Shown piece by piece: positions 7,493-52,015 of a stretch of 64,000 nt of DNA (positions are counted from its first letter, which is position 1; each line of letters begins with the position of its first letter). The DNA is taken from positions 285,699 through 349,698 of the forward strand of contig NZ_AP014568.1 of the NCBI RefSeq assembly GCF_000828895.1. The letters are read 5' to 3'. The notes beneath the pieces were generated by a model that searched no databases, was not told the origin of the DNA, and worked only from the letters and a program-made list of their open reading frames with translations. Made by a program: the position numbers and the translations under genes. The stretch is from Serpentinimonas raichei (GTDB lineage: Bacteria; Pseudomonadota; Gammaproteobacteria; Burkholderiales; Burkholderiaceae_C).

Positions 7493-8729
7493 TACCGATC
7501 CAAGCCGCCCCTTGGCCGTCCCCGGTTTGCCACCCCAAGTGGCCTTGCAGCCCTATGCCTGCTGGCCCGAGCGCAGCCGTGGCCGCCGCTACCCACAGCC
7601 CGTGGCCCCGACGCGCAACGAATTCCAGCGCGACCGCGACCGCGTCATCCACAGCAGCGCTTTTAGGCGCCTGGTCTATAAAACCCAGGTGTTCCTCAAC
7701 CACGAGGGCGACTTGTTTCGCACCCGCCTGACGCACTCGCTCGAAGTGGCGCAGCTGGGGCGCAGCATCGCGCGCAGCCTGGGGCTGCACGAGGATTTGG
7801 TGGAAGCGATCGCGCTCGCGCACGACCTGGGCCACACCCCGTTCGGTCACGCGGGGCAAGACGCGCTCAACGCCTGTTTGCACCAACTGCCGCCCGACCC
7901 CGAGCAGCCGCACGATGCGCCCACCTCCCATGAACCCGATGGGGGCTTTGAGCACAACCTGCAAAGCCTGCGCGTGGTCGATGAGTTGGAGCAGCGCTAC
8001 CCCGAGCACGACGGCATCAACCTGTGCTTCGAGACCCGCGAGGGCATACTCAAACACTGCTCGCGCGCCAATGCGCTCTGGCTCGAAGCGCGCGAACCGG
8101 GCGGGGTAGGGCAGCGCTTCCTGAGCGGCCAGTCGCCCTCGCTGGAGGCGCAACTGGCCAACCTAGCCGACGAGATCGCCTACAACGCGCACGACATCGA
8201 CGACGGCGTGCGCTCTGGCCTGTTGCGTCTGGAGCAGCTCGAAGCGCTGGAGCTGTTTGAGCGCCAGCGCCGCGCCGTGTTGCAGGCCTACCCCGCGTTG
8301 GCGGGCAAGCGCTTGCTCTACGAGTCGATCCGGCGCATGCTCACCGAGCAGGTCTACGATGTGATCGAGGCCAGCGGCAGCGCCATCCTGCAGGCTGGTG
8401 TGCAGTCGGTCGACGAGGTTCGGCGCAGCCCGGTGCTGTTGGGTTTTTCGGCCCCGATGCGCGAGCAAGCCAGCGCCCTAAAGCGCTTTTTGATGCTCAA
8501 CCTGTACCGCCACCCGCAGGTGATGGAGCAAACCGGGCGCGCGCGCCAGGTGGTGACCGAGTTGTACCTGATCTACCACGAGGCGCCCGAAGAACTGCCC
8601 GCGCTCGCCGACGGTGCCGCACCCCTGAGCCTGCGCCGCCGCGTGGCCGATCACATTGCCGGCATGACCGACCGCTACGCCCTGCGCGAACACCAGCGGC
8701 TGACCGGCCAGAGCCTGTTCGAAGCCTGA
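7485..8729 (+). CDS. dgt: dGTP triphosphohydrolase-like HD-domain protein
   Basis: Deoxyguanosinetriphosphate triphosphohydrolase-like enzyme, which releases triphosphate from dNTPs. HD-domain metal ligands are visible in the order expected: H of [11 protein letters not shown] in [16 protein letters not shown], and the later D in [18 protein letters not shown]-terminal [20 protein letters not shown] is the family signature. Length 414 aa. The GTG start overlaps the aroB stop. The long-form E. coli Dgt is larger, so this is the shorter Dgt-like subgroup. Confidence 0.88.
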
Positions 8730-8740
8730 GCCGCTGACCG

Positions 8741-9427
8741 ATGGCGCGCCAACCCCGACTCAGCGTACCGGGCTTGCCGCATCTGCTGATCTGGCGCGGC
8801 CATCAGGGCGTTGATCTGTTCCCGCAAGCTGCTGATCGACTGGATTTTTTGCAACTGCTGGCGGATGGTGTGCGTGCGCAGCCGCTGCACTGGCACGGCT
8901 ACGTGCTGCTGGCGCAGCAGGTGCGGCTGCTGCTGACGCCGCTGGCCGAGGGGGCTGTGTCGCGTGCCATGCAAGCGCTCGGGCGCAGTTATGTGCGCCG
9001 CTACAACCTGCGCCACGGGCATGTGGGCACGCTGTGGGAGGGGCGTTTTCGGGGCACGGTGTTGCAGCCCGAAACCGAGCTGCTGCCGGCGCTGTTGAGC
9101 CTGGACACGCAGCCGGTGCGGCTGGGCTTGGCGCGCACGGCAGCCGAGTACGCCTGGAGCAGCCACGGCCATTACGCAGGCCTGCGCCACGAGCCCGCTC
9201 TGAGCGTTCCGGCGGCCTATTGGCAATTGGGCAACACCCCGTTTGAGCGCGAGGCCGCCTACGCGGCGCTGGCGGCGCGGGGCCTGAGCGAGGCAGCGCA
9301 GCAGCGGCTGGAGCAGGCCGCGCTCAAGGGCTGGGCGCTCGGCAGCCCGGATTTTGTGGCGCAGTTGCAACAGCTTACCGAGCGGCGGCTGCAGCCCGTG
9401 CGGCGCGGGCGGCCGCGGCTGGGTTGA
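8741..9427 (+). CDS. REP-associated Y1 transposase homologue (RayT) with degenerate active site
   Basis: Similar to the IS200/RAYT Y1 transposase family, which cuts and joins single-stranded DNA at hairpins. The N-terminal MARQPRLSVPGLPHLLIWRG and the GTLWEGRFRG segment are typical. The single catalytic tyrosine is in place (Tyr84, SYVRRYN). The metal-binding HUH motif, normally NHVHLLLTP, reads QQVRLLLTP: both histidines are replaced (Gln60, Arg62). Such a protein should bind but not cleave DNA. It lies 12 bp after dgt and upstream of gltB, with no IS ends. It could be a domesticated protein or a decaying one. Confidence 0.8.
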   Translation: MARQPRLSVPGLPHLLIWRGHQGVDLFPQAADRLDFLQLLADGVRAQPLHWHGYVLLAQQVRLLLTPLAEGAVSRAMQALGRSYVRRYNLRHGHVGTLWEGRFRGTVLQPETELLPALLSLDTQPVRLGLARTAAEYAWSSHGHYAGLRHEPALSVPAAYWQLGNTPFEREAAYAALAARGLSEAAQQRLEQAALKGWALGSPDFVAQLQQLTERRLQPVRRGRPRLG

Positions 9428-9486: not shown

Positions 9487-9511
9487 ATAAATGGGTTCTG
9501 ACCCCATTTAT
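9487..9511. repeat. Perfect hairpin downstream of the RayT homologue
   Basis: The arms ATAAATGGG and CCCATTTAT are perfect 9-bp complements around the 7-nt loop TTCTGAC. A related half, TCTGACCCTATTT, lies at 9449-9461. The loop and 3' arm share TCTGACCCC with the boundary elements at 43-50 kb. It may be a REP-like target of the transposase homologue or a terminator; no U-tract follows. Confidence 0.55.
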
Positions 9512-9578
9512 TGGCCTAGGCAAGCGCGGCCACTTCGGCTAAGCTAGCACTCCTTTTCCACCGCATCAGGAGCCGGCC

Positions 9579-14324
<4,746 letters not shown>

Positions 14325-41830: not shown

Positions 41831-42571
41831 ATGCTGCTCATTCCTGCCATCGACCTCAAAGACGGCCAATGCGTGCGCCTCCAACAAGGCGACATGGACC
41901 TCTCCACCGTATTCGGCGACGACCCCGCCGCCATGGCGCGGCGCTGGGTGGACCAGGGCGCGCGCCGCCTGCACCTGGTGGACCTCAATGGCGCCTTTGC
42001 CGGGCGGCCCAAAAACGAGGCCGCCATCCGCGCCATCATGAAAGAAGTGGGCGAGGAAATCGACGTCCAGCTCGGCGGCGGCATCCGCGACCTCGACACC
42101 ATCGAGCGCTACCTCGACGCCGGCTTGCGCTACGTCATCATCGGCACGGCAGCCGTGAAAAACCCCGGTTTTCTGCAAGACGCCTGCAGCGCCTTTGGCG
42201 GCCACATCATCGTCGGGCTCGATGCGCGCGACGGCAAAGTCGCCACCGACGGCTGGAGCAAGCTCAGCGGCCACGAAGTGCTCGATCTGGCGCGCAAATT
42301 CCAGGATTACGGCGTCGAATCCATCATCTACACCGACATCGGGCGCGACGGCATGGGCTGCGGCATCAACACCGAAGCCACGCTGCGGCTGGCGCAGGCG
42401 CTCAGCATCCCGGTCATCGCCTCCGGCGGCTTGGCCGGGATCGACGACATCCGCCGCCTGTGCGCGCTCGAACCCGAAGGCGTGGCCGGGGTGATTTGCG
42501 GGCGCTCGATCTACAACGGCGTGCTCGACTTCGCCGCCGCCCAGCGCCTGGCCGACGAGCTCAACGGCTGA
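41831..42571 (+). CDS. hisA: Phosphoribosylformimino-AICAR ribotide isomerase
   Basis: Amadori rearrangement of ProFAR, a TIM barrel of 246 aa. Visible are [20 protein letters not shown], the substrate loop [20 protein letters not shown], and the second phosphate-binding half [13 protein letters not shown]. The catalytic Asp pair is at the start (AIDLKDG) and in [10 protein letters not shown]. Confidence 0.95.
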
Positions 42572-42591
42572 CCCCCCAATCCAAAGCCCCC

Positions 42592-43398
<807 letters not shown>

Positions 43399-43407
43399 GG
43401 CCCGAGT

Positions 43408-43419
43408 GGCCCCATACCT
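43408..43419. repeat. Direct repeat GGCCCCATACCT, left copy
   Basis: Identical 12-mers at 43408 and 44213 bracket the Phd/PIN module; each is followed about 50 nt later by a boundary element. Confidence 0.55.
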
Positions 43420-43460
43420 CAGAATAGCCGTCGCCTCGGCAGATCAAACCGCGGGCAACT

Positions 43461-43490
43461 GGGGGAGCCGTGGTCTGAACCCGATTTCCT
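43461..43490 (+). repeat. Boundary element copy a
   Basis: The 20-bp core GTGGTCTGAACCCGATTTCC is preceded by a G-run. It lies between hisF and the Phd/PIN pair. It belongs to a family whose ends read GGGAAA...TTTCCC. Confidence 0.6.
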
Positions 43491-43538
43491 CTTCGATGCT
43501 AAGATCTGGTCTGTATAGTCAGAACCAAGAGTGAAGCG

Positions 43539-43787
43539 ATGCACACATGGCAAATGCAAGAGGCAAAGGCGCGAATGTCGGAAGTGGTCAAGCGCGCCCA
43601 GACGCAGCCCCAGGACATCACCTTGCACGGCAAGTCGGTGGCCGTGGTGATTTCGCGCGAGACCTTTAATCGCCTGTCACAGGCGCAGGATTCGCTGGTG
43701 GATTTCATGCGCCGCTCGCCGCTCTACGGTGCCGACGACATCGTCTTCGAGCGCGACCCGAGCTTGACGCGCGAGGTGGCCTTTTGA
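43539..43787 (+). CDS. Phd/YefM-type antitoxin
   Basis: 82 aa. MHTWQMQEAKARMSEVVKRAQTQPQDITLHGKSVAVVISRETFNRL is the Phd/YefM DNA-binding fold; the C-terminal half should neutralise the PIN toxin. TGTATAGT 20 nt upstream could be the -10 box. The stop overlaps the toxin start. Confidence 0.88.
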   Translation: MHTWQMQEAKARMSEVVKRAQTQPQDITLHGKSVAVVISRETFNRLSQAQDSLVDFMRRSPLYGADDIVFERDPSLTREVAF

Positions 43788-44197
43788 GCTACCTGATCGA
43801 CACCCATGTGCTGTCTGAGTTGCGGCGCAAGTTGCCCAACCCCGGCGTGGTGGCATGGTTCTTGCGCCGACCGCCGCCCACCTTGCATCTATCCGTACTG
43901 ACCCTTGGGGAAATCCGCAAGGGCATCGAGGGAGTTGATGACGCGACACGCCGGCAGTCGTTGCTCGATTGGCTGGAAACCGATCTGCCCCCCTTCTTTA
44001 CCGGGCGCATCCTGAGCATAGACGCAGCGGTTGCCGACCGCTGGGGGCGTTTGGTCGCTGCTGCCGGGCGACCACTGCCCGCCATCGACAGCCTGCTCGC
44101 AGCCACTGCGCTGGAGCACGACTTGGTGCTGGTGACTCGCAACACCAAAGATTTCTTTGGCCTACCCGTAGAGATCTTCAACCCCTGGTCGAACTGA
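43784..44197 (+). CDS. PIN-domain (VapC-like) toxin
   Basis: 137 aa ribonuclease-type toxin. Acidic residues of the PIN site are visible: Asp6 (YLIDTHVLSE), Glu in LTLGEIRKG, Asp in PAIDSLLAATA, and Asp in TRNTKDF. TTG 43784 overlaps the antitoxin stop, the usual coupled arrangement. Confidence 0.9.
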   Translation: MSYLIDTHVLSELRRKLPNPGVVAWFLRRPPPTLHLSVLTLGEIRKGIEGVDDATRRQSLLDWLETDLPPFFTGRILSIDAAVADRWGRLVAAAGRPLPAIDSLLAATALEHDLVLVTRNTKDFFGLPVEIFNPWSN

Positions 44198-44212
44198 TCA
44201 CAGAGCAATCGG

Positions 44213-44224
44213 GGCCCCATACCT
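44213..44224. repeat. Direct repeat GGCCCCATACCT, right copy
   Basis: Second copy of the 12-mer, on the other side of the Phd/PIN pair. Confidence 0.55.
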
Positions 44225-44261
44225 TTAACCACTCCCTACACGAAGGCAGGGACTGGGCTTA

Positions 44262-44292
44262 GGGGAAAAACGTGGTCTGACCCCGATTTCCC
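44262..44292 (+). repeat. Boundary element copy b
   Basis: The best copy: core GTGGTCTGACCCCGATTTCC preceded by GGGGAAAAAC. Outer arms GGGAAA/TTTCCC, inner arms GGT/ACC. It lies between the PIN toxin and the Rpn-like gene. Confidence 0.65.
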
Positions 44293-44348
44293 TGTGAGCA
44301 GCTGCAACTGCGCTTTGAAGAGCTGCGCGGAAATGACGCCTTGAGCCC

Positions 44349-45467
44349 TCAGTGCAAATCGCCCTGACCCGATTCACCAAACAACTCAGACAAGGAGGCC
44401 GCCGTCAGGATGCGGGTCATCCAGTCCATGAGTTCGGCTTCGCTGGCCTCTGATAGGCGCGCATCCACCCACTGCGGCACGGAACCAAAACGCAGGCGCA
44501 GCTGCAAGGCCAGCGCTTTGGCGTAACCTTGGTGCATACCCTGCTGCATACCCTGCTGCACACCCTGTTGCAATCCTTGCTGCATACCCTGCTGCAACCC
44601 TTGCTGCATACCCTGCTGCAACCCTTGCTGCATACCTTGCTGCAACCCTTGTTGCAACCCCTGCTGCAAGCCCTGGTTCACCCCCTTCATGGTGGCTTCG
44701 TCGAACCAGCGTTCAATGGTTTGTTCCAACATGGCACTGCCTTCCAGTAGGTCGTTGATGGTGTCGATTTCGTCTATGTTAGCGCGTGGTGCCTTGCGGC
44801 GCAAGAGCATGCGCACCCACACACTGATCGTGCGCCTCAAGGGCTGCATGGCCTCGCCTTGCAGAAACTGGCCCAATGCGCCCAGCACCTGCGCTATGTC
44901 GGCCGGTGTGCGGCTGCGTTCGAGCCGAAACAGCGCCTCGGCCAGGTTGCGCATTTCCGGCAAGGGGTGGAGCTTGAGCCGCGCTTCGTCTATCAAGTGG
45001 TAGAGCAGCCGTGGCCGGTAGGGTTCCAGACCGGGCAGACTGGGGCCGTAGCAGTCGGCCACGTCGGTGGCGGATTTCCAGGCTGCTGCACCGTTGTACA
45101 GCACCATGGGCACCACCGTGGGCAAGTGCCGGTCTTGGAGCTCGCCTTCATTGACCAGGTGTTGCGACAGCAGCCCCACATAGACCATCATGCGCAAGGC
45201 CATCCAGGGGTCGGGCTCGCTTTGGAACTCCAGCAGCAAATACACCCACACCCACTGCTGGCCCACCCGCAGCCGCCAGACCATGTCGTCGTGGCGCTGG
45301 CGTTCGGTGTCGCTCACGTAGCTGGCGTTGACGCGCTCCAAGGTGTTGAAGTCGGCCTGCTCCAACCAAGCGCCGCCCAGGTAGCCGGTTAGCAGGTCGC
45401 GCACCATCTCCGGGTGGGAGAACAGCAGTTTGTAGCCGGTGTCGTGGGCGTTGTTGGGGGTGGCCAT
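44349..45467 (-). CDS. Rpn/YhgA-like nuclease (Transposase_31 family)
   Basis: 372 aa. MATPNNAHDTGYKLLFSHPEMVRDLL is the family N-terminus. The PD-(D/E)XK-type nuclease site is suggested by DDMVWRL and YLLLEFQSEPD. By family it cuts DNA and can promote RecA-independent recombination. Residues about 270-315 are a tandem GLQQ/GMQQ repeat, coded by a 12-bp unit array. The C-terminus (QLRLRFGSVPQWVDARLSEASEAELMDWMTRILTAASL) resembles DUF4351. The open frame extends upstream of 45467 into the higA gene but has no family similarity there. Confidence 0.85.
   Translation of the reverse strand: MATPNNAHDTGYKLLFSHPEMVRDLLTGYLGGAWLEQADFNTLERVNASYVSDTERQRHDDMVWRLRVGQQWVWVYLLLEFQSEPDPWMALRMMVYVGLLSQHLVNEGELQDRHLPTVVPMVLYNGAAAWKSATDVADCYGPSLPGLEPYRPRLLYHLIDEARLKLHPLPEMRNLAEALFRLERSRTPADIAQVLGALGQFLQGEAMQPLRRTISVWVRMLLRRKAPRANIDEIDTINDLLEGSAMLEQTIERWFDEATMKGVNQGLQQGLQQGLQQGMQQGLQQGMQQGLQQGMQQGLQQGVQQGMQQGMHQGYAKALALQLRLRFGSVPQWVDARLSEASEAELMDWMTRILTAASLSELFGESGQGDLH
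44530..44678 (-). repeat. 12-bp tandem repeat array inside the Rpn-like gene
   Basis: About 12 units of a CCCTGCTGCATA-type 12-mer, coding GMQQ/GLQQ on the minus strand. Units differ by a few bases. The length is a multiple of three, so copy-number change would keep the frame. Confidence 0.85.
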
Positions 45468-45505
45468 GGTGCTGTTGATGATACTGGCGATTCTGAACCG
45501 GATCT

Positions 45506-45536
45506 GAGGAAACCCGTGGCCTGCCCCCGATTTCCC
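45506..45536 (+). repeat. Boundary element copy c
   Basis: The core GTGGCCTGCCCCCGATTTCC is preceded by GAGGAAACCC. It lies between the Rpn-like gene and higA. Confidence 0.55.
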
Positions 45537-45549
45537 ACCCCGCATCCCT

Positions 45550-45849
45550 CTAGGCGGCCAGCCGCGAGCAGCGCGGAATGCGGGCCAGTTCTTCTTGCAT
45601 GGCCTCGCGCGCCAACGCCGTGTCGTAGCTGGCCTGACCGCGCAGCCACCAACCGTCGCTGAGGCCAAAGTAGCGGCAAAGCCGAAGGTCGGTATCGGCC
45701 GTAACGGCGCGCTTGCCGGCAACGATGTCCCCGATGCGCTGCGGCGGGACGCCGATGTCTTTGGCAAGGCGGTACTTCGTGAGGCCAAGAGGCTTGAGGA
45801 ATTCTTCTTCAAGCATCTCGCCGGGCGAGACGGGGGCGACGGTGCGCAT
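45550..45849 (-). CDS. higA: HigA-type antitoxin
   Basis: 99 aa XRE-type helix-turn-helix: PVSPGEMLEEEFLKPLGLTKYRLAKDIGVPPQRIGDIVAGKRAVTADTDLRLCRYFGLSDGWWLRGQ. This is the HigA/VapI pattern. It lies 13 bp after higB; toxin-first order is typical of HigBA. ATG 45849 is the family start; the open frame continues upstream in another gene. Confidence 0.9.
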   Translation of the reverse strand: MRTVAPVSPGEMLEEEFLKPLGLTKYRLAKDIGVPPQRIGDIVAGKRAVTADTDLRLCRYFGLSDGWWLRGQASYDTALAREAMQEELARIPRCSRLAA

Positions 45850-45862
45850 GGCAGACTTCCTT

Positions 45863-46144
45863 TTAGTGATAGTCAACGATCTCGACGCCAGTGGCACCGT
45901 CGTTGCTCCAGACAAAGCACAGACGCCACTGGGCGTAGATGCGGATGCTGTGCTGGCCCTTGCGGTCATCTTTCAGGGCTTCGAGGCCGTTGCCGGGCGG
46001 AACCTTCAGGTCATCAAGCGCCGCAGACCAGTCGAGTTGCGCCAGTTTGCGCAGGGCGGGGCGCTCGATGTTTACCCAGCGCCGGATCCGCTGGCCTTCG
46101 AACAGGGCTTGGGTATCCTTGCACTTGAAACTTTTGATCGCCAC
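45863..46144 (-). CDS. higB: HigB-type toxin
   Basis: 93 aa RelE-superfamily ribosome-dependent mRNase: AIKSFKCKDTQALFEGQRIRRWVNI, then LDDLKVPPGNGLEALKDDRKGQHSIRIYAQWRLCFVWSNDGATGVEIVDYH. The start is GTG 46144. No ribosome site is seen, and a near-consensus promoter places the transcript start almost on the GTG, so the mRNA may be leaderless. Confidence 0.9.
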   Translation of the reverse strand: MAIKSFKCKDTQALFEGQRIRRWVNIERPALRKLAQLDWSAALDDLKVPPGNGLEALKDDRKGQHSIRIYAQWRLCFVWSNDGATGVEIVDYH

Positions 46145-46150
46145 GGCCAG

Positions 46151-46179
46151 ATATTAACGTGATGCGTTCATACTGTCAA
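46151..46179 (-). promoter_or_regulatory. Near-consensus sigma-70 promoter of higBA
   Basis: The -35 TTGACA (46179-46174) and -10 TAATAT (46156-46151) are separated by 17 nt on the minus strand. The predicted start falls at about 46144, on the first base of the higB GTG. Confidence 0.7.
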
Positions 46180-46377
46180 CTCTCTATCTTCTGTCCTGAC
46201 CATGCCCCCCTCCACCCCCACTGTGGCGCTGGCGCAACAGGTGCAGCGATAAATCCGGCCCAAACCGCGACGCCGGCCCCGCTTTCTGGTTCAATACGCC
46301 CTAGCTTCAGCAAACACAGAAGCTTCGGCACGGCGGCCCAAAGCCCCGGCCATTCATCAACCTTGGAGAACTTTTCA

Positions 46378-47457
46378 ATGAAAAAGACCCTGATTGCTCT
46401 GGCCGCACTCGCCGCCACCGGTGCTACTCTTGCTCAATCCAGCGTGACCATTTATGGCCGTATGGATCTGGGCACTTCCTCGACTGACACCACCCAAGTG
46501 GGTTCCACGCCTGCTGGTGTCGCTGCTGCCACCGTCGGCGAATCCTTCTCTCTTGCTGGTGCCGAAGGTCAGCGCACCGGCAGCCGCTTGGGCTTCCGTG
46601 GCACCGAAGACCTCGGCGGTGGCCTGCGCGCAAACTTCGTGTACGAAATCGGCATCAACGCCGATCGTCTGACCCCCGTTGGCACATCCCCTGCCAACAA
46701 CGCCCAAACTCGCCTCGCCAACCTGAGCCTCTCCGGCGGCTTTGGTACCGTGGTTGTCGGCACCTTCATGAACGCCTTTGACGCAGTCCGTGCCTTCAGC
46801 CCGGCCACAGCCAATGCCCCAGGTGGTGACTTCACTTTGGGTCACGGCGCTGCCACCACAGAGCGCTTCGACAGCCGCACACAGAACGCCATCGCCTACG
46901 TGTCGCCCGCATTCAGCGGCTTCACCTTCCAAGTTGGTACTGTGAACGAAGAGCACGCCGACCGCAAATACGACGGCATGATCCTCGGCTTGCGTTACTC
47001 GCAAGGCCCGTTGGCCGCACAGTTCGCTTTCGGTCAATTGGATGTTGCCTACCATGCGCCATTGCTCGGCGCTGGCTCGACCTCTGCAACACCGTCGAAC
47101 GCAGAAATCACCAACTGGGCCTTGGGTGTGAGTTACACATTGGCACCTGTGGTTCTCTCGTTCATCTACGAAGATGCAGAGCAATCCTTTGGCCCAACCA
47201 CCACGCGCGAACACAACGCTTGGGAAATCGGAGCCCGCTTCCCGATGGGTGCTTTTGCTCCCTACATCACGGTTGGTCAGGGTGAAATCACTGCTGGTAC
47301 CATTTCCACCGACACCAGCGCTTGGCAAATTGGCACCACCTATAACCTGAGCACTCGCACGTTTGTCTACGCTGCATTCGGTGAACTGGAGCTGGACCGC
47401 CCTGGTTTCGCTCGCCAGACCGACGGTTATCGTATCGGCCTCGTCCACAACTTCTGA
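46378..47457 (+). CDS. Gram-negative porin (first of a tandem pair)
   Basis: Outer-membrane beta-barrel, 359 aa. A signal peptide ends near residue 20 (LAALAATGATLAQ). It shows SSVTIYGRMDLG, GSRLGFRGTEDLGGGLRANFVYEIGIN, many alternating strands, and a C-terminal Phe (LVHNF), the outer-membrane assembly signal. It resembles the Omp32-type general porins of Comamonadaceae. GGAGAA lies 7 nt before the ATG. Codon choice includes more T-ending codons than its neighbours, as in a highly expressed gene. A terminator follows. Confidence 0.93.
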   Translation: MKKTLIALAALAATGATLAQSSVTIYGRMDLGTSSTDTTQVGSTPAGVAAATVGESFSLAGAEGQRTGSRLGFRGTEDLGGGLRANFVYEIGINADRLTPVGTSPANNAQTRLANLSLSGGFGTVVVGTFMNAFDAVRAFSPATANAPGGDFTLGHGAATTERFDSRTQNAIAYVSPAFSGFTFQVGTVNEEHADRKYDGMILGLRYSQGPLAAQFAFGQLDVAYHAPLLGAGSTSATPSNAEITNWALGVSYTLAPVVLSFIYEDAEQSFGPTTTREHNAWEIGARFPMGAFAPYITVGQGEITAGTISTDTSAWQIGTTYNLSTRTFVYAAFGELELDRPGFARQTDGYRIGLVHNF

Positions 47458-47603
47458 TCCCTCTAGCCGGGCTCAACCCTTGCTCTGCAAGGGCCAAGCC
47501 TAGGCCAGCCGACCCGCCGCCCTGCCTAGCAGGGCAGCCGAACAGGCTCAAGACAGAAGCCTTAAAACCCCCAGTGCCTCACGGCCTTGGGGGTTTTTTC
47601 TTG
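47455..47603 (+). repeat. 3' region copy 1 (shared with second porin)
   Basis: The 150 bp from the porin stop through the terminator is closely similar to 48857-49003. Shared pieces are CTAGCCGGGC, GGGCCAAGCCTAG, CAGGGCAGCCG and AGACAGAAGC, then the hairpin. Confidence 0.7.
47564..47599 (+). terminator. Rho-independent terminator after porin 1
   Basis: A CCCCCA...TTGGGGG stem with flanking AAAA and a TTTTTT run; loop region GTGCCTCACGGC. Confidence 0.92.
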
Positions 47604-47839
47604 GATTGCCTGAAGTGGATCGCTGTGGTCACTGCACTGGAATGTTGCATTTTTGCCGCTTGGATCGAACGGCCTTTCATGCGCTGTCACAAAAGTTACA
47701 AACTAGGCGGTGGCTGCGGGTATCCCACCTTGTCCAGCATGGGCGCACGTGTTGCAATAGCAGCGGCTGTGCTGCTCTGGTCATCGCGCAGCCGACCGTT
47801 TGCACACCGTTGCTTGCGTTCCCAAACCCTAAGGAGACA
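47604..47839. other. Region before porin 2, no gene seen
   Basis: 236 bp between the terminator and the second porin. No ORF with coding character, no RNA gene seen. It probably holds the porin promoter; no clear -35/-10 pair is evident. Confidence 0.5.
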
Positions 47840-48859
47840 ATGCCTGTGAAAAAAACCCTCATCGCCTTGGCGGCCCTCGCCGCCTCCGGGGCCGCTTTGG
47901 CCCAAGCCAGTGTCACCGTCTATGGTCGCATGGACCTTGGCATGTCGTCGGTGGACACCACACTCGGCACCGCCCCAGCCACCGACGCCTTTTCCCTCGC
48001 CGGTGAGCAAGACCGGTGGACCGGCAGCCGCCTAGGGTTTCGCGGCACCGAAGACCTTGGTGGCGGACTGCGCGCCAATTTCACTTACGAAATCGGCATC
48101 AATGCCGACCGCAGCACGCCGGCTGGCGTTTCTCCAGCGGACAACGCCCGCACACGCTTGGCCAACCTGAGCCTTGCTGGTGGCTTTGGCACCTTTGTTG
48201 TGGGCACCTTCATGAATGCCTTCGACACCGCGCGCGCCTTGAGCCCGGCCAACAACACCATTCCCGGTGGGCAATTCACCCAGTGGCAAGCCACCGCTGG
48301 CAGCGAGCGCTTCGACGGCCGCAGCCAAAACTCTTTCGCCTACGTGGCCCCGGCCATCAACGGCTTTACCTTCTCCATGGGCGGAGGCAGCGAAGAAGCT
48401 GGCGCTGCCCTCAAATTCACCGGCTATACGCTCAACCTCAATTTCAACCGTGGCCCCTTGGTGGCGCAGTTTGCCTTTGGCGACCTCGACATGGATCTGC
48501 CCGTGGTGGCCGATATGCAAAACTGGGCCTTGGGTGTGCGCTACAACTTTGGCCCGGTGGTGGCTTCCTTCATCTACGAAGACAGCCAGCGCGATGTGGC
48601 CGGCGTGCGCACCTTCAGCGCCAACAGTTGGGAAATCGGGGCCCGCTTTCCCATGGGAGCCTTGGCCCCCTACATCACCTTTGGCCAAGGCGAGCGCAAT
48701 ACCGATGACATCGACGGCTGGCAGATCGGCACCACCTACAACCTGAGCCCGCGCACTTGGGTCTATGCCGCCATCGGCGAGGCGCAGCGCGAAACCGCCG
48801 CAGGCATCAACGTGCGCAAGGAAAGCGGCTACGCCATTGGCTTGGTCCACACCTTCTGA
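47840..48859 (+). CDS. Gram-negative porin (second of the tandem pair)
   Basis: 339 aa porin. The signal peptide KKTLIALAALAASGAALAQ, GSRLGFRGTEDLGGGLRANFTYEIGIN, GGFGTFVVGTFMNAFDTAR and the terminal Phe (LVHTF) match porin 1 closely, with about 20 residues fewer and shorter loops. AAGGAG is only 3 nt before ATG 47840 and 9 nt before GTG 47846, so GTG may be the true start. It is a local duplication of porin 1 that has diverged in codon use (more GC at third positions) and loop sequence. Confidence 0.93.
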   Translation: MPVKKTLIALAALAASGAALAQASVTVYGRMDLGMSSVDTTLGTAPATDAFSLAGEQDRWTGSRLGFRGTEDLGGGLRANFTYEIGINADRSTPAGVSPADNARTRLANLSLAGGFGTFVVGTFMNAFDTARALSPANNTIPGGQFTQWQATAGSERFDGRSQNSFAYVAPAINGFTFSMGGGSEEAGAALKFTGYTLNLNFNRGPLVAQFAFGDLDMDLPVVADMQNWALGVRYNFGPVVASFIYEDSQRDVAGVRTFSANSWEIGARFPMGALAPYITFGQGERNTDDIDGWQIGTTYNLSPRTWVYAAIGEAQRETAAGINVRKESGYAIGLVHTF

Positions 48860-49003
48860 TCCCACTAGCCGGGCCCAACCCCTGCACCGCAGGGGCCAAG
48901 CCTAGCAAAACCTCCCGGCCTCCCTGTTCATCAGGGCAGCCGGGCAGGCCTAAGACAGAAGCTTAAAACCCCCAGCGCCTCACGGCCTTGGGGGTTTTTT
49001 CTT
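48857..49003 (+). repeat. 3' region copy 2 (shared with first porin)
   Basis: Second copy of the porin downstream region, including the hairpin and the trailing TTTTTTCTTGG. Confidence 0.7.
48965..49000 (+). terminator. Rho-independent terminator after porin 2
   Basis: Same stem as the first terminator, with one base change in the loop (GCGCCTCACGGC) and a TTTTTT run. Confidence 0.92.
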
Positions 49004-49044
49004 GGGCGGGAAACCTGCATGGCCGCTACCATTGCCTAGACTCG

Positions 49045-49146
49045 TTGGAAGTGCCGCAGCTGCGAAATAAGCGCGATCAGACCCTCGCCCAGCGTGGCTT
49101 GGATTTTGCCCTAGCCCTTGAGGTGTTCGACGGGGTGCATACGTGA
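49045..49146 (+). pseudogene. BrnT toxin relic (N-terminal fragment)
   Basis: The frame ending in TGA at 49144 reads ...LRNKRDQTLAQRGLDFALALEVFDGVHT and stops. This matches the N-terminal third of BrnT (pattern AKRDxNLxKHGLDFxxAxEVF). The remaining two-thirds, including catalytic residues of the RelE-like fold, are missing. The relic overlaps the BrnA start, as an intact BrnT gene would. The upstream start is uncertain (TTG 49045 or GTG 49051). Confidence 0.72.
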
Positions 49147-49445
49147 AACCGCAAGATTCACCCCAGCCTTGGGTTGACCCGGATGACGCACCGGAGCTGA
49201 CGGATGATTTTTTCGAGCAAGGCGAGTGGAAAATTGGTACACGGCCGGTTGCACCTGAAGCGGGCGCGGCTGCTCTGCGTGAGGCGCTGTCCCGTGGCGG
49301 CCCCAAGGCGCAAAGCACCAAGCTGGCGCTGACGGTGCGCTACGACGCAGAAGTCATCGAGGCCTTCAAGGGCACCGGCCAGGGTTGGCAGACTCGGATG
49401 AATGACGCCTTGAAAGATTGGCTGAAAACACATTCGCCTGCATAG
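49143..49445 (+). CDS. BrnA-type antitoxin, without intact toxin
   Basis: 100 aa. DPDDAPELTDDFFEQGEWKIGTRPV, then KLALTVRYDAEVIEAFKGTGQGWQTRMNDALKDWLK, which is the BrnA ribbon-helix-helix C-terminal domain. The GTG start overlaps the toxin relic stop. With only a BrnT fragment upstream it is a solitary antitoxin; it may still protect against a BrnT elsewhere. Confidence 0.87.
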   Translation: MKPQDSPQPWVDPDDAPELTDDFFEQGEWKIGTRPVAPEAGAAALREALSRGGPKAQSTKLALTVRYDAEVIEAFKGTGQGWQTRMNDALKDWLKTHSPA

Positions 49446-49475
49446 GGAAAACGGTTGCTAGGCCACAGTTTTCCC
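49445..49475 (-). repeat. Boundary element copy d
   Basis: Perfect 8-bp arms GGGAAAAC and GTTTTCCC with a 15-nt centre containing GGCCACA (TGTGGCC on the minus strand). It begins at the end of brnA. Confidence 0.5.
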
Positions 49476-49476
49476 G

Positions 49477-49578
49477 TCCTTCAACAAGCTCAGGATGATC
49501 GGGGGCTTGCCGAGTCCGCCGTTCGCCCTGAGCCTGTCGAAGGGCTTGCCGTGGCTTCGACAAGCTCAGCCCGAACGG
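49477..49578. repeat. REP-like repeat cluster
   Basis: Two oppositely oriented REP-type units: CCGTTCGCCCTGAGCCTGTC (from 49519) and CTTCGACAAGCTCAGCCCGA (from 49555). A degraded third lies at 49477-49497 (CTTCAACAAGCTCAGGATGA). Together they form a BIME-like pair. This REP type is widespread in proteobacteria. Confidence 0.8.
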
Positions 49579-49626
49579 TACAAAGAAGGGTGCGTGAGCC
49601 GGACTTGGCCTTCCCCTGTTTTTTGC

Positions 49627-49905
49627 TCACGCCAGTTCGATGCGCAGATTCTTGCCCAGCGCTTTGGCGGCACTGGTGAGGGTGGTCAGCGTCAGGCTGG
49701 TGTCGGTTTCGTCTAGAAGTCGGTTCAGCGCCGCACGGCTGGTGTGCATTTTCGCGGCCAGCGCGGTTTTGCTCAAGTGCTGTGCTTTCATTTCATGGGC
49801 AATCTGCCAAGCAACGACGCGCTTGATCGCCACGGCGGTGGTTTCATCGAGCACCGCTTCGTCGGCTAGGAAGTCATCAAAATTGCTGCCGATGTGTGGG
49901 TTCAT
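49627..49905 (-). CDS. XRE/HTH antitoxin
   Basis: 92 aa. A helix-turn-helix is visible in HLSKTALAAKMHTSRAALNRLLDETDTSLTLTTLTSAAKALGKNLRIEL. The start at 49905 overlaps the toxin stop. The toxin-first order matches HigBA-type pairs with DUF891 toxins. The open frame upstream belongs to another frame of the toxin gene. Confidence 0.86.
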   Translation of the reverse strand: MNPHIGSNFDDFLADEAVLDETTAVAIKRVVAWQIAHEMKAQHLSKTALAAKMHTSRAALNRLLDETDTSLTLTTLTSAAKALGKNLRIELA

Positions 49906-50249
49906 GAGGCTAACCTGAGTTGTTGCAGACGACGCTTGGCAAGGTCGAGTTCTTCGACAGGCGTGTCTTGTGACTTCTTGATGAAGCCGTGCAGCAAGAC
50001 CATCGTGTGAGCGACGAGGGTAAATAAAATCCGAGCAATCCGATCCTTGAGGTGAACACGAATCTCCCAGAGGTCTTTGGCTAATTTGCGGACCAAGGGC
50101 ATCCCCAGCGGCCAGCCGAGCTGCACCGTCTTGATGTCTTCCCCAATGGCGCGGCGCTCGCTGGCAGGCAAGGACTTGAGCCATTCGCGCACAGGTTCGC
50201 TGCCACTGTTGGAGGCGTAGAAGCGAACATCCAAGATGGGTGTACTCAT
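49902..50249 (-). CDS. DUF891 (Gp49-like, HigB-type) toxin
   Basis: 115 aa. ILDVRFYASNSGSEPVREWLKSLPASERRAIGEDIKTVQLGWPLGMPLVRKLAKDLWEIRVHLKDRIARILFTLVAHTMVLLHGFIKKSQDTP is the phage-derived Gp49/HigB pattern. The start at 50249 gives MSTPILDVRF. A perfect palindrome lies 10 nt upstream. Confidence 0.88.
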   Translation of the reverse strand: MSTPILDVRFYASNSGSEPVREWLKSLPASERRAIGEDIKTVQLGWPLGMPLVRKLAKDLWEIRVHLKDRIARILFTLVAHTMVLLHGFIKKSQDTPVEELDLAKRRLQQLRLAS

Positions 50250-50259
50250 GCCCGCAAGT

Positions 50260-50275
50260 GTACCAACTTTGGTAC
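50260..50275. promoter_or_regulatory. Palindrome upstream of the DUF891/XRE pair
   Basis: GTACCAA-CT-TTGGTAC, perfect arms of 7 bp, ending 11 nt before the toxin start. It is a likely operator for autoregulation by the XRE antitoxin. Confidence 0.55.
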
Positions 50276-50278
50276 CAA

Positions 50279-50309
50279 GGAAATTGGGGGCAGACCACAT
50301 TTTTCCCCC
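50279..50309 (-). repeat. Boundary element copy e
   Basis: Reads on the minus strand GTGGTCTGCCCCCAATTTCC, preceded by GGGGGAAAAAT. It lies upstream of the DUF891/XRE pair. Confidence 0.62.
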
Positions 50310-50426
50310 GTTGCCCAGCCTAGTCCCCCCGCCAAGCCACCCTGCCTAGCAGTAGGGTGCACTGTGCGATGGACATCGGAGCGCAGTTCACAGAAAAAAA
50401 ACTTGCCTCCGGCGACAAAACCCACT

Positions 50427-50459
50427 GGGAAATAAGGGTCCGGCGGACCACGGTTTCCC
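50427..50459 (-). repeat. Boundary element copy f
   Basis: Outer arms GGGAAA/TTTCCC and a perfect inner palindrome, GGTCC-GGC-GGACC. It is a more divergent copy, just upstream of mazEF. Confidence 0.5.
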
Positions 50460-50514
50460 TCCGCTGATTCAGCTACATTTGCCGTGTATCTACTTTGTTT
50501 CTACGGAGTCCGTC

Positions 50515-50757
50515 ATGGCACTGCAGCTAATCAAAAAATGGGGCAACAGCCCGGCCATACGCTTGCCCGCAGCGGTGATGCAGGCCGCACACCTGAGGCT
50601 TGAGCAAGCAGTGGACATTCGCGTCGAGAACGGTCGCGTCGTCATTGATGCCGCAGCGCCGTCCTACAAGCTGGACGATCTGCTGGCAGGGATCACGGCC
50701 CAAAATCGGCACGGTGAGCAGGACTTCGGGATGCCGCAGGGCCGGGAGTTGCTCTGA
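50515..50757 (+). CDS. mazE: MazE-type (AbrB-fold) antitoxin
   Basis: 80 aa. LQLIKKWGNSPAIRLPAAVMQAAHLRLEQAVDIRVENGRVVI is the swapped-hairpin AbrB/MazE DNA-binding domain. The acidic C-terminal segment would bind MazF. CGGAGTCC precedes the ATG. The stop overlaps the toxin ATG. Confidence 0.92.
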   Translation: MALQLIKKWGNSPAIRLPAAVMQAAHLRLEQAVDIRVENGRVVIDAAAPSYKLDDLLAGITAQNRHGEQDFGMPQGRELL

Positions 50758-51095
50758 TGGCGACGTACGTGCCGGATGAGGGCGACATCGTCTGGTTGAG
50801 TTTTACGCCGCAAAGCGGACACGAGCAAGCCGGTAGGCGACCGGCTGTGGTTCTGAGCGCCAAGGCCTACAACCAGCGCTCGGGCTTGCTGGTCTGCGTC
50901 CCGATCACCAACCAGATCAAGGGCTATCCCTTTGAAGTGGCGCTCGGTGGCGACGGTGCCACCGGGGCCGCCCTGGCTGATCAGGTCAAGAGCCTGGACT
51001 GGGAATCCCGCCAAGCCGAACGCAAGGGGCGGGCCACACCCCCAGAGCTCGCCGAGATCAAGGCCAAGATCAAGGCCTTGCTCAAGCTTACCTGA
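50757..51095 (+). CDS. mazF: MazF-type endoribonuclease toxin
   Basis: 112 aa: YVPDEGDIVWLSFTPQSGHEQAGRRPAVVLSAKAYNQRSGLLVCVPITNQIKGYPFEV, with DQVKSLDW and a C-terminal ELAEIKAKIKALL. The pattern (GDIVWL...GHEQAGRRPAVVLS, catalytic Arg and Thr/Ser) is intact, so the toxin should be active against mRNA. Confidence 0.93.
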   Translation: MATYVPDEGDIVWLSFTPQSGHEQAGRRPAVVLSAKAYNQRSGLLVCVPITNQIKGYPFEVALGGDGATGAALADQVKSLDWESRQAERKGRATPPELAEIKAKIKALLKLT

Positions 51096-51196
51096 AGGAG
51101 CGCAACATCGGCCATTGGGGGTGGCACGCAGCTGCTGTGCTGCCTACGGATTGTGCGGCCACGGTGACAACGACCCGGATATGCGCCGCATAGTGG

Positions 51197-51231
51197 GCCT
51201 AGAGCCTAGAGCCTAGAGCCTAGAGCCTAGG
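51197..51231. repeat. 7-bp tandem repeat (GCCTAGA, five copies)
   Basis: Four exact copies and a fifth with one change lie in the 200-bp gap between mazF and the glycosyltransferase gene. It is rich in CTAG. No other function is seen in this gap. Confidence 0.85.
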
Positions 51232-51298
51232 GCGTTGGCGCAGCCGCGTGTGCGAAAATCAGCGCCATCGATTTTTTGACCACAACCCCTGCACCCCG

Positions 51299-52015
51299 AT
51301 GAGCCGAACCCATCCTGCGCCCAGCGGCCCCTTGCGCCTATGCGACACCGTGGTTTGCGTCTGCAAGAGCGGTGGCGAATACGGCGCGGCCCACGTGGCG
51401 GCGCTGCAGCAGCAATTGGCGCGCCACGCACCCGGTGCGCGCCTGATCTGCCTGACCGACCTGCCCGATATGCCCGCTGGCGTGGAGCGCCGGACGCTAC
51501 AACACGATTTGCCGGGCTGGTTTTCCAAGCTGGAAATTTTTGACCTGCCCGAACGCTGTTTTTTGTACATCGACCTCGATGTGTTCATCACCCGCAGCCC
51601 GCTCACCGATGCGCCGCCCGGCCTGTGGCTGCTGCGCGGCTTCAAGGGCCGAGATTTCAATTCGAGCGTGATGCTGGTCAACGGCAATTACCGCAGCATA
51701 CTGGAGCGCTTTCTAGCGGACACGCAGGCCAACCTGCAGGCCTATTCGGGCCGCACCGGCTGGGGCGACCAAGACTTTATCCGCGACAGCGGCCAGATCA
51801 GTGGTGCCCTACAAGACCTGCACCCCAACCTTGCCGCCTCGTGGAAGGTGGATTTGCGCTACCGCATGGGCTGGATCGAGCCGGCCCCGGCGGTGCTGGT
51901 GTTCCACGGCAAGCCCAAGCCGGAGCAGTTGCGCATCGAAAACCCAAAACCAGGCCGGGTGCGGGTGCGCAGTTGGCTTTATTGGCCGCTGGCTTGGTTG
52001 AAGGCATTGGCTTGA
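51299..52015 (+). CDS. Putative glycosyltransferase (GT-A fold)
   Basis: 238 aa. It contains YIDLDVFITRS, a DxD motif that would hold the metal and nucleotide sugar, after VVCVCKSGGEYGAAHVAAL and LICLTDLPDMPAGV. The pattern fits small nucleotide-diphospho-sugar transferases of polysaccharide loci. The acceptor is unknown. The C-terminal end (WLYWPLAWLKALA) is repeated as a relic at 53397. It lies 2.2 kb from the ligase-like and GT2 genes, so may serve the same surface polymer. Confidence 0.75.
   Translation: MSRTHPAPSGPLRLCDTVVCVCKSGGEYGAAHVAALQQQLARHAPGARLICLTDLPDMPAGVERRTLQHDLPGWFSKLEIFDLPERCFLYIDLDVFITRSPLTDAPPGLWLLRGFKGRDFNSSVMLVNGNYRSILERFLADTQANLQAYSGRTGWGDQDFIRDSGQISGALQDLHPNLAASWKVDLRYRMGWIEPAPAVLVFHGKPKPEQLRIENPKPGRVRVRSWLYWPLAWLKALA

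Follow-up and report, generated by a model that had tools for sequence, protein, structure and literature searches.

The stretch of DNA analysed here, called the window below, covers 64,000 nucleotides (positions 285699-349698) of the 2,574,013-base genome of the alkaline-spring bacterium Serpentinimonas raichei (G000, contig C1), and coordinates are those of the window unless stated otherwise. Beside hisF, it holds an island of toxin-antitoxin (TA) modules with six short palindromes, which are the subject of this work. Three of them are on the plus strand: element a (43461..43496), between hisF and a Phd-PIN module; element b (44260..44294), between the PIN gene and an Rpn-like gene; and element c (45506..45538), between the Rpn-like gene and a HigBA-type pair. 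The other three are on the minus strand, namely palindrome d (49444..49478), which is divergent and lies directly 3' of the BrnA gene; element e (50277..50310), upstream of a Gp49-HTH pair; and palindrome f (50426..50461), whose core carries an insertion, upstream of a MazE-PemK pair. A sequence-only reading of this DNA had already reported the six palindromes with these orientations, and all are present as stated. It had also placed them between genes, and this holds, with two details to add: d abuts the stop codon of BrnA, and the gene caller had put the start of the Gp49 gene at 50300, across e (the start used here is 50252).

The names given to the modules by the sequence-only reading agree with Pfam. 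The Phd antitoxin and PIN toxin (43539..44197, +; PF02604 and PF01850) are followed by the Rpn/YhgA-like gene (44349..45470, −; Transposase_31, PF04754), the HigBA-type pair (45550..46144, −; HTH_3, PF01381, and HigB-like, PF05015), and, after two tandem genes read as porins (46378..48859, +), by the BrnA antitoxin (49143..49442, +; PF14384), the Gp49 (DUF891) and HTH_37 pair (49627..50252, −; PF05973 and PF13744) and the MazE/PemK pair (50512..51095, +; PF04014 and PF02452). The Rpn-like gene contains, at 44530-44670, a tandem run of a short CTGCTGCAACCCTTG-like repeat, possibly variable in length.

The palindromes do not resemble each other evenly. The arms GGGAAA...TTTCCC, thought from the letters alone to be usual, are exact in three of the six (b, d, and f) and not in a, c, and e, while the core thought to be common to all is shared by a, b, c, and e, d and f having only the arms in common with them. 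The 13-mer core, with up to two mismatches, has 7 matches in the window against 1.63 expected, a number reached in 1 of 100 shuffles; in the whole genome, with at most one mismatch, it has 13 matches against 8 for the reversed control, so that in this GC-rich genome the 13-mer is weak by itself. The 18-mer GTGGTCTGNCCCCGATTT, with up to two mismatches, has six matches in the whole genome against none for its reversed control; four of the six are a, b, c, and e, all in one 6.8-kb stretch, and the chance of such clustering, by a post hoc calculation, is about 1e-5. We also built a profile of 28 columns from 266 distinct copies in other genomes. It ranks b (45.3 bits), e (36.8 bits), c (26.5 bits), and a (25.4 bits) as the top four sites of the window, with no site at or above 12 bits in 40 shuffles. 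One has to keep in mind that a pattern drawn from the window core had been used to retrieve the source loci; the core columns of the profile are, for this reason, not independent and favour the window copies, and the ranking is partly built in. Palindrome d scores −3.9 bits and f is absent from the best 25 profile sites; both, thus, rest on their arms and position, and the membership of f is uncertain.

Hairpins are predicted for all six, with energies from −6.5 to −18.1 kcal/mol when both strands are considered (without a shuffled control). When positions 42000-52000 were scanned with Rfam, nothing reached the gathering score; the best candidate, AaHKsRNA41 at 49443-49584 (−), lies over palindrome d and the neighbouring repeats and, with 25.3 bits where the cut-off is 97 (E 0.016), was taken as a chance match.

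The same core occurs in other bacteria. A pattern with 18 fixed bases found 119 loci in a species-level genome collection; the 80 that were listed come mostly from beta-, gamma-, and deltaproteobacteria, and many are metagenome bins; at least one (Desulforudis) belongs to none of these groups. Conservation fades about five bases before and three bases after the pattern, which gives a unit of some 22-28 bases. Among 183 clusters at distant loci, 116 are single copies and 39 are simple inverted −+ doublets, with no simple +− doublet; ten clusters lie inside called genes and were excluded from the neighbour counts given below. The genes beside the distant copies are ordinary ones, no different in length from others (150 amino acids (aa) or fewer in 35% vs. 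36%). In the genus, copies are few at up to two mismatches (6 in S. raichei, 4 in G150, and 13 in G073, the last two being further Serpentinimonas genomes), and one of the G073 copies (L185) is inside a called gene. A family-level search found the element in 2 of 150 genomes, both of Serpentinimonas, so that at this stringency the family as a whole does not share it. No exact match was found in the viral contigs searched, and the plasmids searched gave short matches in eight records, none covering more than 80% of the query. A text search of the literature for the core matched only two papers, both titled on animal cells or mice; such a search does not reach sequences drawn in figures (the TIR figure of PMC3733652 is one), and the core may have been shown before.

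Some copies form the ends of longer units. We saw miniature elements of about 290 bp with such ends in Pseudomonas sp. ICMP 561 (L032:820-7640), four within 8 kb and with well-conserved interiors, and three copies of a unit of about 80 bp in L037. G073 contains a dispersed unit of about 170 bp (L180, L181, L186, and L187) that has an element-like end in some copies; a 183-bp query with the element at one end matched 27 pieces in G073 and four in each of the other two genus genomes, and several of the 27 overlap or are without an element end.

It is their position around transposase genes that gives these repeats a likely origin. Ten of 48 Y1 open reading frames (ORFs) have the element (up to three mismatches) on both sides, in (−,+) order and within 100 bp; they represent eight distinct genes, since L157 repeats L066, a Methyloversatilis locus, and L161 repeats L068. 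Among the 21 Y1 ORFs of L007-L125, those of L008, L066, L068, L076, L098, and L118 are bracketed in this way, the left copy being on the minus strand and the right copy on the plus strand. Y1_Tnp was matched in 16 of the 20 element-carrying genomes tested. We then placed 47 Y1 ORFs and the RAYT-type gene of the window in a tree, one ORF of less than 110 aa being left out: 20 of the 47 carry the element on at least one side, and this character needs 4 changes vs. 15.4 for shuffled labels, with none of 500 shuffles as low. The HUH motif (NHVH) and the catalytic tyrosine (RYIELNP) are seen in the full-length element-flanked relatives listed. A small mobile repeat had been one of the possibilities raised by the sequence-only reading, and a core that brackets Y1 genes and forms inverted doublets in other bacteria bears it out.

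The window itself has one gene of this kind, a decayed RAYT-type gene (8741..9427, +) that aligns with Y1 proteins and has lost the HUH and tyrosine motifs: it reads HGYVLLAQQVR where its relatives read like HAYVLMTNHVH, and SLDTQPVR in place of RYIELNPVR. In the tree it sits on a long branch, near but outside the element-linked rows. It is flanked by a single palindrome resembling a terminal inverted repeat (TIR), on its 3' side (9487..9514, +), which at 15.6 bits is the best site of the window outside the island. The link between island and RAYT gene proposed earlier, thus, stands as to this site, but the gene is decayed, and PF01797 (Y1_Tnp) had no match at E 0.001 in any of the three genus genomes, recombinases other than Y1_Tnp not having been searched for. 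The genus shows transposon ends without a visible working enzyme.

Adjacency to TA genes is supported within the genus. Of its 11 separate element loci, window included, nine lie next to a TA module, counting L188, where the PIN gene comes second from the element. Even if a high background of 0.28 per locus is assumed, this number has a P of 3e-4. The two loci without such a neighbour are 386284 in S. raichei (L182) and 1779333 in G073 (L185). Of the 34 nearest genes beside elements in ten regions (up to two mismatches, window excluded), at least 14 are TA-type genes, namely BrnA, a Gp49-HTH gene, MqsA, MqsR, YafQ, YhaV, two PIN, RelB, Gp49, and two antitoxin-type HTH proteins, to which the family tally adds DarT and its NADAR antitoxin. 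In the same ten regions, some 11 to 13 of 94 genes more than 1.5 kb away are of TA type among the best 25 of 165 families, and 153 genes in 20 random stretches include at least two (MqsA and MqsR), counted on 37 small genes and the best 25 of 49 families. A side finding is a pair of DUF4160 and DUF2442 genes beside elements (L181:11621-12263), possibly a TA-like pair.

The picture is different for distant loci. In a first test, TA names fell on 8 of 130 neighbours (PIN 3, FitA 2, Phd 2, and PemK 1) and on none of 130 far genes, judged on the best 25 of 151 and 25 of 202 families, respectively; in a second test on small genes (87 from 215 neighbours and 139 from 368 far genes, HTH families omitted, best 25 of 62 and 25 of 120 families), they fell on 16 of 87 neighbours vs. 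12 of 139 far genes. Because the family lists of the controls are less fully covered than those of the neighbours, the enrichment outside the genus is weak or inconclusive; the adjacency to TA genes, which the sequence-only reading had put forward for testing, is supported for Serpentinimonas.

We compared the island with those of G150, a sister species (island region L179), and G073. All three genus genomes have a hisF-side island with the two shared porins and differing TA modules. The porins, common to the sister-species islands, have homology to L179 and L181, and porin families (PF13609/PF00267) were found on 2 of the 34 neighbour genes from the sister-species regions; the MazE/PemK pair is without a match in the G150 island. 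Pieces matching 43468-50280 are found at L179 9878-14480, where they run opposite to hisF and to a 238-aa gene on the other side, which means that this part of the island is inverted relative to G150, and its ends are at elements a and e. In G073 and the window alike, the porins point the same way as hisF, so that the inversion probably took place in the G150 line; in G073, the 238-aa flank gene is at a different chromosomal place. At element a, the left flank and core match a G150 element at 13654 (L179 13732-13652, −), and the right flank matches a G150 half-element at 9878 (L179 9878-10065, +). Judging from these alignments, element a looks like the joint of two sites that stand apart in G150; no second good match to its 88-bp flank-plus-core turned up in the three genus genomes. 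Homology with G150 stops inside palindrome d (49454) and at 50280, in element e. Where the window has its HigBA pair, G150 has an element directly next to the region upstream of the first porin, and a second G150 element, at 7831, is at the edge of a displaced 402-aa gene. A single inversion, considered as an account of the whole G150 order, fails, as the 402-aa gene and an 81-bp unit sit elsewhere.

Three smaller features of this comparison may be recorded. From palindrome d to the Gp49-HTH pair, the intervening DNA (49478-49580) is filled by a cluster of TTCGACAAGCTCAG / CTGAGCCTGTCGAAG inverted repeats, and the sequence there is different in G150; tandem CCTAGAG repeats occupy 51195-51235, just before homology with G150 resumes; and the G150 fragment near 13560, between two elements, resembles by eye the start of the Rpn gene.

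With breakpoints listed by hand from BLAST rows, 4 of 11 G150 breakpoints are within 20 bp of an element, vs. 8.8% of intergenic positions (P 0.012), and 1 of 11 is within 5 bp (P 0.38); in window coordinates, three of seven are near an element, with P from 0.04 to 0.23 depending on the distance. A coincidence of module borders in other strains with the element, proposed earlier as a check, is seen for some G150 breakpoints and is modest, the other seven being further off.

The reading that we prefer, and consider probable, is that the elements are solo TIR copies of a Y1 family of the RAYT/TIRYT type that now sometimes act as recombination joints; this judgement is mainly one on the TIR origin, and it overlaps those that we give to the rival readings. 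That they are relic ends of a TIRtron-like transposon (element a being such a TIR relic and b the top copy) is well supported. For a role as recombination joints of TA modules, we put the chances at about one half, with element a and the inversion supporting it moderately. Copies of the element would have been scattered while a transposase was present, would have persisted between genes in TA islands that the cell can do without, and, being short stretches of homology in inverted or direct orientation, may occasionally act as joints for the inversion, deletion, or replacement of TA modules. A stronger version, in which solo transposon ends are the preferred joints for the inversion, swap, and loss of whole TA modules in one island, making a cassette-like array without an integron, is rather doubtful. 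Several points weigh against the reading that we prefer. The core profile depends in part on the window pattern. In a set of Y1 ORFs chosen regardless of proximity, 4 of 27 are bracketed, and two of these four repeat the genes of L066 and L068; 4 of the 20 element-carrying genomes tested gave no Y1_Tnp match. GGGGWSAS, a motif of known TIRs, is exact in one of the six window copies (b). No working transposase was detected in the genus, so that mobility there is unseen. Finally, the breakpoint test is modest, its distance having been chosen post hoc, and a single inversion leaves part of the G150 order unexplained.

The same TIR origin would also be true of passive bystanders, transposon relics tolerated between the genes of a dispensable TA-rich island and without a part in its rearrangement. 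This is quite possible, as the coincidence of breakpoints in window coordinates is weak and seven of the 11 in G150 are more than 20 bp from any element; however, the four within 20 bp, and an element a that unites flanks found at two separate G150 sites, with a flank-plus-core that has no second good match, are harder to fit to it. A true cassette system, in which the palindrome would be the specific site where an enzyme swaps TA modules, one copy per cassette, could draw on the TA adjacency in three species, on HigBA-type pairs that stand at different loci in two species yet agree in the side and relative orientation of their element, and on the G150 fragment between two elements that, by eye, recalls the start of the Rpn gene. 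We consider it improbable: between those two species, the stretch from the HigA stop to the element fails to align, no window module is bracketed (−,+) in TIRtron fashion, distant copies are beside ordinary genes, and the genus has no match to Y1_Tnp, the one recombinase family searched for. The cassette or attachment-site system suggested by the sequence-only reading is, for its part, not upheld, the core being elsewhere the TIR of Y1 transposases and standing beside ordinary genes with weak or inconclusive TA enrichment, and the six elements having no integron-type core site. That the palindromes are operators or terminators of TA genes instead of mobile DNA would suit hairpins near the ends of TA operons, but their side relative to the operon varies and the core also lies beside many unrelated genes and around transposase genes elsewhere, which makes this idea very unlikely indeed. 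For the question of how modules are acquired, lost, and reordered in chromosomal TA islands, a short repeat that is easily recognised and has a known origin would, if it stands at some of the joints as in our preferred reading, be a testable marker.

Three known systems invite comparison. Integron attC arrays have imperfect palindromes between small gene modules, with core sites GTTRRRY / RYYYAAC. The island shares the palindromes and their placement; it differs in having two orientations within one array, and neither core site was found by eye on either strand of the six elements. The REP/REPIN sequences of RAYTs are likewise short intergenic palindromes that form inverted doublets and belong with the Y1 transposase family, but the elements here are few in the genus and lack the GT[AG]G outside the hairpin, at its foot, a feature given in PMC6006769; their GTGG is inside the palindrome, not 5' of the foot.

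The closest likeness is to the TIR/TIRYT "TIRtrons". The window copies differ from these as degenerate solo copies at the borders of TA modules, none of the six bracketing a Y1 gene, in a genus without detectable Y1_Tnp. Di Nocera et al. (PMC3733652) describe Y1 genes flanked by TIRs, some of which share GGGGWSAS, with copies that are single, dimeric, or grouped, and TIRYT are, according to Quentin et al. (PMC6006769), mostly in subclass 2.1. Our family has the same inverted repeats around Y1 genes and the same single, dimeric, and grouped copies. Its consensus, GGGG(A/T)CAGACCAC, with GGGGWCAG as its form of the motif, fits the GGGGWSAS of those TIRs, a fit in which the A/T position alone was free in the search pattern, the remaining motif bases being fixed by it; of 142 distant rows, 96% have A or T there.

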